Below are positions 58,021-60,748 of a stretch of 64,000 nucleotides of DNA, piece by piece. The stretch spans positions 992,001-1,056,000 of the forward strand of contig NZ_OX458932.1 in NCBI RefSeq assembly GCF_949774925.1. Direction: 5' to 3'. The stretch is from Candidatus Methylacidiphilum fumarolicum (GTDB lineage: Bacteria > Verrucomicrobiota > Verrucomicrobiia > Methylacidiphilales > Methylacidiphilaceae). Within the stretch, counting starts at the first letter, position 1. Each line of letters begins with the position of its first letter. The notes under the pieces were generated by a model. The model did not search any database. It had not been told where the DNA came from and saw only the letters and a program-made list of their open reading frames with translations. Both the position numbers and the translations under genes were made by a program.

Positions 58021-58617
58021 TATTTGGTGGTGTCCTGGGCCAGGCCAAGAAGGCCATTTTATTGGATTGATATACGCGGCATGACTGAGAGCTGTTGCTT
58101 CTGAGGAGATATCAAAGATGCTGGAAGGAAAACTTCTAGATACAGCTTTTTTGGTGGCGGAACAGACTAGTCTGGATAGGAAATTAGATTTGGTAGCTTA
58201 GAGAGAGCATTTACTAAAGGTGACTAATAGATCTAAATATGACAATTCAAGAAAGATAAGAATGCTCTTAGGATCTTTAGTTTTTAATGTGAATGTGGAA
58301 AATTATCCTATTTTCCCGTGTAGGAAGAGGGGTGGTATTACTCCATTTTATGTTCCCACAGATTCTAGCCAGAAGGGGAGATCACTTATATTTTGTTATT
58401 GGACTAGATCCTGCGAGCTTTTTTGGAAGGACCGAGTCATTCGCTGGTTTAGTAAGGAATACTTCTTCATTAGGCTGCTGGATAGGGTAGAAGGACTCAT
58501 CCAATATGCCATCTGTAAACTAAATTTAGGATTCAAACCTGAAACTTACAGGGTGGTTCCGGCAGATCTCACTTACCTAACATTGCTACCGAAGGGGATT
58601 ACAGAAGGAGAAAGATC
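58021..58617 (+). other. Decayed coding-like stretch, no intact gene
   Basis: About 600 bases between addA and the IscB element. In the frame of base 58085 there is an open, protein-like stretch (AVASEEISKMLEGKLLDTAF) that is broken by TAG at 58199-58201 and continues as REHLLKVTNRSKYDNSRKIR. A different frame at about 58340-58490 also reads like protein (RRGDHLYFVIGLDPASFFGR, TESFAGLVRNTSSLGCWIG). These could be remnants of one or two genes, possibly broken by the mobile element next door. I recognise no family. Confidence 0.4.
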
Positions 58618-60246
58618 TTGTCAACTATCCATCCCATAAATGGGATGGGCTTGTAGACAACTGCAAGCCGGGTTGACCAGGGTAAGTTATGGAGCAGATG
58701 ACAATGCAAAGAAGTAACTACGTGAGCGCTAGGTGGCAGCAGACCCACTCCGGGATGCTTCCTCAGTCCCGTACACTGGAAGAAGGGGATCATGCTGGCA
58801 AAAGGCAAAGCGCCAAAGGTTCTCTTCTCCCGCGTAGGTGGGCAGCCGGTCGTGCACATTCTCGAGGGGAGCGAGCCAGGAACGCCAACCAGGCTCCGTC
58901 ACCGGAAATAACCGGGAAAGGGAGCGTAAGCTCCCATGTGTTCGTATTAGATAAGCGAAAGCGGCCTTTGATGCCTTGCTTGCCCGTTAGGGCAAAGAGG
59001 CTCTTGAGTCTAGGGAGAGCCGGCGTGCACCGGGTGTATCCATTCACGATCCGGCTCAAGTTCAGGACCAGCGGCAATACGCAACCGGTCCAGCTTAAAC
59101 TAGACCCGGGTAGTAGAACGACGGGCTTGGCGCTCCTTCGTGAGGATGGAATCAGGCAGCATGTTTTCTGGATGGTGGAACTAGAGTATCGAGGAGAGGC
59201 GATCCGGGCCTCTCTTACGCAACGCCGAGCTTTTCGCCGCCACAGGAGCAGCGCTAACTTACAGTATCAACCGCCCAGATTCAATAACCGTGCTAGGCCG
59301 GAAGGGTGGATTGCGCCTAGCTCAAGGCTCCGAGTCGATACCACAATGTCCTGGGTCAACCGGCTAGGGAGATTGGCTCCGATCACAGGCCTTAGCGTCG
59401 AGCTGGTGCGGTTCGATACCCTGGCAATGCAGAATCCTGAAATTAGCGGTGTAGAGTATCAGCAAGGGACGCTGGCTGGATATGAGCTTCGAGAATACCT
59501 ACTGGAGAAGTGGGGGCGTGAAGGTGTGTATTGTGGAGCCAGGAACGTGCCGCTTGAGATCGACTATATTCATCCAAAGAGCCTTGAGGGCAGCGACCGG
59601 GTAAGTAACCTAACTCTTGCTTGCCAGGAGTGTAACCAAGCTAAGGGCAATCAGCCAGTGGAGAAATTCCTTTCTGGGCAGCCGGAGCGGCTGGATCGGA
59701 TCCTGGCGAAGGCAAGGGCGACTTTGTGGGATGCTGTGGTGGTTAACAGCACCCGCTGGGCTCTCTTCCATCGCGTGAAAGAGACGGGTCTTTCAGTTAA
59801 TGCTGGAACGAGCGGGAGGACAAAGTGGAATCGCAGTAGGCTCTCCATTCCGAAGGCTTACTGCTTGGATGCTGTTTGTGTGGGTGGGCTCGAGTCTGCT
59901 GAAGGATGGAACCGGACGTTTTTGAAAATCAAGGCGTCAGGACGTGGCAGTTATCAACGGACTTGGCTCAATCAGCATGGGTTTTCCAGAGGCTATCTCA
60001 TGCGGCGTAAGGTATCTTTCGGTTTCCAGACTGGAGAAATCGCGCGGGTCGTCGTGCCGATGGGAAAGAAGGCGGGGACTTACGTCGGCCGCATTGCAAT
60101 CCGCGCTAGCGGTAGCTTTAAGGTGCAAACGGCGGATGGCGTCGTGCAAGGCGTACCGCATCGCTTTTACCGACTACTCCATCGTAACGATGGTTATGGA
60201 TACTCACATTGGACGCTAACCCTCCCCTCCCTAAAGGGAAGGGGTA
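58618..60246 (+). mobile_element. IscB-encoding IS200/IS605-like element
   Basis: Bounded by two hairpins that both carry a TAAA loop: CCATCCCA-TAAA-TGGGATGG at 58629-58648 (extended by TTGTC/GACAA outside it) and CCCCTCCC-TAAA-GGGAAGGGG at about 60226-60246. Subterminal hairpins of this type mark the left and right ends of IS200/IS605-related elements. Between them lie a GC-rich structured non-coding stretch and the iscB gene. No tnpA is present, so it would depend on a helper elsewhere. The region is visibly more GC-rich than its neighbours, which indicates acquisition from another source. Exact cut sites are not determined. Confidence 0.65.
58650..58937 (+). ncRNA. Candidate omega RNA (guide scaffold) of the IscB element
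   Basis: IscB proteins use a guide RNA transcribed from the region upstream of iscB, in the same direction. This 288-base stretch is GC-rich, full of short inverted repeats, and ends in two clear hairpins: CCGG-AAATAA-CCGG (58902-58915) and GGGAGC-GTAA-GCTCCC (58920-58935, a perfect stem with a GNRA-type loop). The last hairpin ends two bases before the iscB start. An open frame crosses the region but has no IscB-like residues before GTG 58938. The guide would be specified by the sequence left of about 58620. Boundaries are approximate; expression is untested. Confidence 0.55.
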
Positions 60247-60266
60247 TCTCGCGAGGAGTTTTATGA
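58938..60266 (+). CDS. iscB: IscB RNA-guided nuclease-family protein with altered catalytic histidines
   Basis: 442 residues from GTG 58938 (ATG and open frame further upstream are in the RNA region). PLMP domain: KRPLMPCLPVRAKRLLSLGR (residues 9-28). RuvC-I LKLDPGSRTTGLAL with D56. Arg-rich bridge helix about 96-118. RuvC-II GLSVELVRFDT with E155. HNH about 196-240: VYCGARNVPLEIDYIHPKS then LTLACQECNQAKGN. RuvC-III IPKAYCLDAVCVG with D311. The HNH catalytic His (expected D-H-I) is Y210 and the first zinc cysteine (expected C-x-x-C before CG) is G196. The RuvC-III His (expected H-x-L-D) is Y308. The reading frame is otherwise intact. IscB is the family from which Cas9 arose. GC-rich relative to neighbours. 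Confidence 0.85.
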   Translation: MFVLDKRKRPLMPCLPVRAKRLLSLGRAGVHRVYPFTIRLKFRTSGNTQPVQLKLDPGSRTTGLALLREDGIRQHVFWMVELEYRGEAIRASLTQRRAFRRHRSSANLQYQPPRFNNRARPEGWIAPSSRLRVDTTMSWVNRLGRLAPITGLSVELVRFDTLAMQNPEISGVEYQQGTLAGYELREYLLEKWGREGVYCGARNVPLEIDYIHPKSLEGSDRVSNLTLACQECNQAKGNQPVEKFLSGQPERLDRILAKARATLWDAVVVNSTRWALFHRVKETGLSVNAGTSGRTKWNRSRLSIPKAYCLDAVCVGGLESAEGWNRTFLKIKASGRGSYQRTWLNQHGFSRGYLMRRKVSFGFQTGEIARVVVPMGKKAGTYVGRIAIRASGSFKVQTADGVVQGVPHRFYRLLHRNDGYGYSHWTLTLPSLKGRGISRGVL

Positions 60267-60748
60267 ATAAAAGACTTTTCCAAGGTGCTTACCTCTGCTT
60301 ATGCCTTTATTTTTTTAGCCTATCTGTTTCTCTTTTTGCTTTTGAGGATCCTCTGTTACCCGATCCCAAGTTGACACCGGGCGATACTTTTGATGTTACA
60401 AAGGAGGACATTTGTGTTCCTGGTTATGCAAAGCTTGTCAGGGATGTTCCCTATGCCCTCAAAAGAAAGGTATATTTAAGATATGGCATTATTCATCCGG
60501 ATAAGCATCATTATGAGATAGATCATTTGATTCCTTTGGGACTTGGTGGTTCCAATTCAATAAAAAATCTATGGCCTCAATCTTATAGGACCTTTCCCTG
60601 GAACGCTTATCTTAAAGACAAGCTGGAATATAAGTTGCACCAATTAGTTTGTGCTGGAGTGGTTGATTTAAAGGAAGCTCAAAGGGAAATTGCTACTAAT
60701 TGGATAGAAGCATATAAAAAATATATGGCAGAAGGGAAGGCTAAATGA
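60263..60748 (+). CDS. Secreted HNH-nuclease-like protein
   Basis: 161 residues from ATG 60263, supported by a GAGGAG ribosome-binding site at 60253-60258. A signal peptide is visible (GAYLCLCLYFFSLSVSLFAF). The mature part has the HNH pattern HHYEIDHLIPLGLGGSNSIK (D87, H88), N-L-W-P and then NAYLKDKLEYKLHQLVCAGV. Cysteines 51 and 130 could form a disulphide in the periplasm. Similar small exported HNH proteins are widespread in Proteobacteria; their role is unclear. Its start overlaps the iscB stop by 4 bases and lies right after the element's right-end hairpin, so its original promoter may have been displaced. Confidence 0.75.
   Translation: MNKRLFQGAYLCLCLYFFSLSVSLFAFEDPLLPDPKLTPGDTFDVTKEDICVPGYAKLVRDVPYALKRKVYLRYGIIHPDKHHYEIDHLIPLGLGGSNSIKNLWPQSYRTFPWNAYLKDKLEYKLHQLVCAGVVDLKEAQREIATNWIEAYKKYMAEGKAK

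Follow-up and report, generated by a model that had tools for sequence, protein, structure and literature searches.

Early decay probably accounts for a recently inserted IscB with tyrosine at both nuclease histidine positions

The window analysed here is a 64,000-nucleotide stretch of the Candidatus Methylacidiphilum fumarolicum genome. It carries a complete HEARO element that has no transposase gene of its own and holds the only full-length open IscB frame in the genome, one other copy being broken and one carrying an internal deletion. IscB is an RNA-guided DNA cutter and an ancestor of Cas9. The element and its surroundings comprise the following features, all on the forward strand.

58604..58619, + strand: presumed omega-RNA guide, the 16-nt left flank GAAGGAGAAAGATCTT, directly upstream of the omega-RNA
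58620..60262, + strand: complete HEARO (IscB) element, with left end GTCAAC and right end before ATGA (ends common to other copies, uninterrupted sister site, GC step)
58620..58877, + strand: omega-RNA (HEARO, RF02033), directly upstream of iscB (Rfam 88.4 bits, gathering score 83)
58938-60266, + strand: iscB, an open frame of 442 codons with GTG start and TGA stop, the stop lying inside the target ATGA
59187..59189, + strand: codon 84, Tyr, against His in 148 of 149 homologues (alignment)
59247..59270, + strand: codons 104 to 111, where near-invariant arginines are gone (R104S, R109Q, R111Q) and a one-residue insertion adjoins; presumed bridge-helix segment (alignment)
59523-59525, + strand: codon 196, GGT, Gly at the position of the first zinc Cys, which is Cys in 149 of 149 homologues (alignment)
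59565-59567, + strand: codon 210, TAT, Tyr at the position of the HNH catalytic His, motif E-I-D-Y-I-H-P (alignment, PDB IscBs)
59859-59861, + strand: codon 308, TAC, Tyr at the position of the RuvC-III catalytic His, motif P-K-A-Y-C-L-D-A (alignment, PDB IscBs)
60221..60262, + strand: right end, an inverted repeat plus GAGGAG (60253-60258) that may serve the downstream gene as ribosome-binding site (read directly)
60263..60748, + strand: downstream gene of 161 codons with weak HNH-like similarity, its ATG being the A-T-G of the target ATGA (adjacent start codon also at the empty site in sister genome G001)

In its domain order, its omega-RNA directly upstream, the position of its guide in the left flank, the TAM-like ATGA on its right and the lack of a target duplication, this locus resembles the IscB/HEARO systems of the IS200/IS605 superfamily (OMEGA). 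The guide role of the 16-nt flank is presumed from the known IscB layout, in which the omega-RNA guide lies in the left flank. Elsewhere in the genome, copies have the same left end, GTCAAC (GTCATC in the variant copy S649), and right ends that run into ATGA, and the GC content of the element, about 55%, forms a sharp step from the surroundings. The right-end layout is also present in a deletion derivative, D1988. When the flanks are joined, GAAGGAGAAAGATCTT followed directly by ATGAATAAAAG, the resulting sequence is uninterrupted in sister genome G001, with 88% identity over 500 bases, and the empty site reads GAAGGAGAAAGATCTT followed by ATGA; a shorter match in sister genome G004 also spans the junction. 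Insertion of the HEARO element thus caused no target duplication, and it parted the 161-codon gene's start codon from its ribosome-binding region; the presumed guide overlies that former ribosome-binding region. Because the site is uninterrupted in sister species, the insertion is recent, and it most likely postdates the split from the sister species.

The window element is one of nine HEARO matches in the genome, the others being the broken iscB copy, D1988 and six solo elements of 466-471 bp, in which no iscB is left beyond a C-terminal remnant.

G000:C1 at 649471, 688694, 710638, 730974, 861343, 1519489 and 1988113: the six solo elements and D1988 (L049-L055)

Each of the eight insertion sites tested has an uninterrupted counterpart in one or more sister genomes. 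Ends are defined for eight elements, and seven of these, counting the window copy, lie immediately in front of an ATGA whose ATG opens a real-looking gene; for the solo elements and D1988 by themselves the figure is six of seven. The probability of such gene-start placement for seven of the eight is about 2e-4, a rough value obtained against ATGA at gene starts and non-coding ATGA counted in one window. HEARO was originally described by Weinberg 2009 (cited in PMC9755519); a literature search on HEARO and ATGA returned nothing relevant.

Several further observations concern these elements. At the site of solo element S1519 (L051), sister genome G001 has another HEARO element (L092, G001:C43:16418-16821), 67% identical and at exactly the same insertion point, with flanks that are 96-97% identical between the species; the two belong to different HEARO subfamilies, and the shared point reflects either independent insertion or replacement. 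A solo HEARO precedes the start of what seems, by eye, to be the same alcohol dehydrogenase gene both here (S731, L055) and in sister genome G003 (L098), the element types and left flanks being unlike. Contig G003:C1 has five HEARO RNAs (L084, L089, L091, L094 and L098; 88-104 bits), most of them directly before a start codon, and a search for IscB in G003 gave no match. D1988 (L049) and L318/L314 (G442:C43:20896-21090), which are unrelated mini-elements, both have iscB codons 1-21 in frame with the C-terminal end, and their upstream breakpoint is identical. Non-autonomous derivatives of IS200/IS605 elements are known. The solo elements and D1988 resemble them in retaining both ends without most or all of the gene, but differ in retaining the omega-RNA and in lying mostly at gene start codons.

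The window protein scores 399 bits against the curated NCBIfam IscB model NF040563 (cutoff 175) and contains the RRXRR and HNH Pfam domains; judged by its sequence, it is an IscB by descent, which does not imply endonuclease activity. We aligned it with 149 full-length homologues, all distinct, drawn from bacterial genomes and viral contigs. In genome-contig searches an alignment query recovered homologues and a single-sequence query recovered none; the phage records searched held no match. A first-pass annotation had described an unbroken 442-codon frame with tyrosine at both the HNH and the RuvC-III histidine, glycine in place of the first zinc cysteine, and intact D56, E155 and D311, and all of this held up: the frame runs from GTG to TGA, column 210 is His in 148 of the 149 homologues, column 308 is His in 147 (Tyr in one, Lys in one), and C199, C229, C232 and N233 are intact as well. 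That annotation had also proposed an alignment with known IscBs. Those in the PDB span both motifs and, like the 149 homologues, align unshifted there, which rules out a catalytic histidine moved to an adjacent position. Same-genus and same-family relatives that can be read at these positions retain the histidines. The complete HNH and RuvC catalytic set is thus absent (H210Y and H308Y). Because the two histidines and the zinc cysteine are each nearly or fully invariant among the homologues, the protein is very probably nuclease-dead. If RuvC were partly active despite Tyr308, the protein could act as a weak single-strand nickase, as the three intact acidic residues would allow and as a full-length homologue with Tyr at the same RuvC-III position (L113) might suggest; nevertheless, the near-universal histidine at that position (147/149) and the loss of many other invariant residues from the window protein make this the least likely of the readings considered here.

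The upstream omega-RNA and the exact element ends were absent from the first-pass annotation, as were many further broken near-invariant columns, and it is these columns that bear most directly on what the protein has become. At a conservation threshold of 95% there are 95 columns, of which the window protein breaks 16, the highest count among 150 sequences (the next breaks 7); at a threshold of 98% there are 61, of which it breaks 10, again the most among the 150. A long branch as the sole cause is ruled out by comparison with 26 homologues on terminal branches of at least 0.30 (window copy, 0.42), which break on average 1.0 of the more strictly and 2.9 of the less strictly conserved columns (maximum 7 in the latter). 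Excluding the catalytic and zinc columns leaves 13 broken, against a mean of 2.8 on the 26 long branches. Catalytic and zinc columns are broken in 3 of 10 cases and the others in 13 of 85, a difference without significant enrichment (Fisher p = 0.36), ten columns giving little power. The near-invariant residues lost include R104, R109, R111, H84, Q162, G292 and P350. What sets the window protein apart from other IscB/HEARO systems is the replacement of the two nuclease histidines, of one zinc cysteine and of many further near-invariant residues. In IscB structures an arginine-rich bridge helix lines the guide (PMC12991159), and the arginine-rich segment of the window protein is presumed, from its position and composition, to be this helix. 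Given that its arginines are lost, omega-RNA binding is probably impaired, and the protein would be a poor RNA binder.

These losses help to decide between the two outcomes that the first-pass annotation had left side by side, early decay and a binding-only protein. Selection for binding alone would be expected to spare all but the catalytic residues; here the losses are protein-wide, so that a binding-only role is not supported, and with the recent insertion it is the decay half of that alternative that stands. A binding-only RNA-guided regulator, using its own omega-RNA or the genome's solo omega-RNAs in trans, would fit the changes at both nuclease sites in an open frame, the largely preserved omega-RNA, and the presence in the genome of seven more omega-RNAs with little or no iscB, mostly adjoining gene starts. 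It is nevertheless very unlikely: the presumed bridge-helix arginines and many other near-invariant residues are gone, the orthologue search that the annotation had also proposed found no orthologous insertion in the sister species tested, and the window's 16-nt guide plus ATGA, the one guide searched, matched genome-wide with up to three mismatches only its own flank and one further site with three mismatches. The narrower proposal, in which a nuclease-dead IscB serves the solo omega-RNAs in trans as a binding-only regulator whose guides adjoin gene starts, is less probable still.

The comparison with TldRs, nuclease-dead transcription regulators derived from TnpB (PMC13418256), leads to the same point. 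Like them, the window protein descends from a mobile-element nuclease and combines an open frame with changed active sites, although TldRs arose from TnpB and not from IscB. Catalytic loss in an otherwise constrained protein is not what we found, given the 13 broken non-catalytic columns, and conservation in relatives is likewise missing in sister genomes G001 (uninterrupted) and G004 (match across the junction). Neither a conserved orthologue nor a genomic target of the TldR kind was found for the window protein, whose losses are protein-wide.

We next consider how long the frame could have stayed open without selection. In the omega-RNA, D1988 and the window copy are 95% identical, and with an outgroup made up of the broken copy and the solo elements, 9 changes in 318 bases are assigned to the window copy and 7 to D1988. 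The nine are mostly from G/C to A/T, as are the steps to tyrosine and several of the arginine losses, and many of the protein changes are C-to-T or G-to-A steps. The estimated divergence of 2.8% corresponds to about 37 changes in the open reading frame, and in a simulation with 33 changes the probability of no stop was about 0.2; with indels included, we estimate the chance of frame survival at perhaps 5-10%. An open frame is thus plausibly compatible with neutral decay, and in so young an insertion it says little in favour of function. Against early decay stand the open frame itself, in which the one small insertion is in frame, and the number of losses: were the 13 extra losses all neutral and later than the insertion, they would need about 5% divergence, close to the most that the sister species allow, at which the simulated probability of no stop drops to about 0.05-0.09. 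One loss, R20K, is common to D1988 and the window copy and therefore predates their split. On the window branch dN/dS is unusable, because every relative tried gave a saturated dS.

An open frame despite broken residues would also be accounted for if only the reading frame were selected, the protein having decayed and iscB persisting as a translated leader whose terminating ribosomes help to start the downstream gene. The iscB stop overlaps the downstream start (A-TGA, 60263-60266), and D1988, which fuses codons 1-21 to the C terminus in frame, retains the same overlap with its host gene. On the other hand, the right end itself supplies a GAGGAG immediately upstream of the ATG, which may make coupling unneeded; in three solo elements the frame leading to the terminal TGA spans only 34-36 open codons; and the stop-start overlap is not general among 139 IscB loci. 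We consider such a leader unlikely.

Taken together, these data make early decay the best explanation for the window IscB, and we hold it with good, though not full, confidence. The HEARO element would have entered the chromosome after the split from the nearest sister species, landing immediately in front of a host gene's start codon, and substitutions would have accrued under weak or no constraint since the insertion or shortly before it. Some of these would have cost the protein its HNH and RuvC-III histidines and the zinc cysteine, and others RNA-binding and structural residues throughout its length, the iscB frame not yet having met a stop or frameshift. We infer that the gene is under no present selection; such decay is an ordinary fate for a gene of a mobile element. 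The first-pass annotation had called every neighbouring transposase shattered; in a light check of these, three open reading frames at 63.1-64.0 kb had no Pfam match, and elsewhere the genome has 12 full-length Y1 transposase domains in open frames.

The same alignment, followed by a wider comparison, also revealed a monophyletic IscB clade from Acidithiobacillus, so labelled from the genome records of three members and the genus membership of the rest.

Clade members: L132 (=L299), L146 (=L300), L125 (=L302), L331, L332, L334 and L335

In all seven members found, the RuvC-II Glu (E155) has become Met or Leu. Two of them keep the RuvC-I Asp and five carry a replacement there; their HNH site is intact, a HEARO RNA that exceeds the gathering score accompanies six, and pairwise dN/dS is 0.10-0.18. 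The three members tested break 2-3 near-invariant columns, mainly RuvC ones. By these alignment-based measures, the clade shows a specific, conserved loss of the RuvC-II Glu under purifying selection, and the window protein is unlike that; the clade proteins are candidates for a natural HNH-only nickase. Among other IscBs, single catalytic positions are altered in L124 (D56H), L153 (HNH His to Pro) and L113 (RuvC-III His to Tyr), and two in L249 (D56C and RuvC-III His to Lys).

One way to separate decay from repurposing in RNA-guided nucleases is to count broken near-invariant columns against homologues on comparable branches, a test that the window protein does not pass as a repurposed binder. 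The side findings are more interesting leads than the window protein itself. With its solo omega-RNA elements placed at the start codons of genes, the genome makes it possible to test how HEARO elements choose their insertion sites, and the Acidithiobacillus clade is the better candidate for a naturally altered IscB which, if confirmed, would be a natural single-strand nickase.
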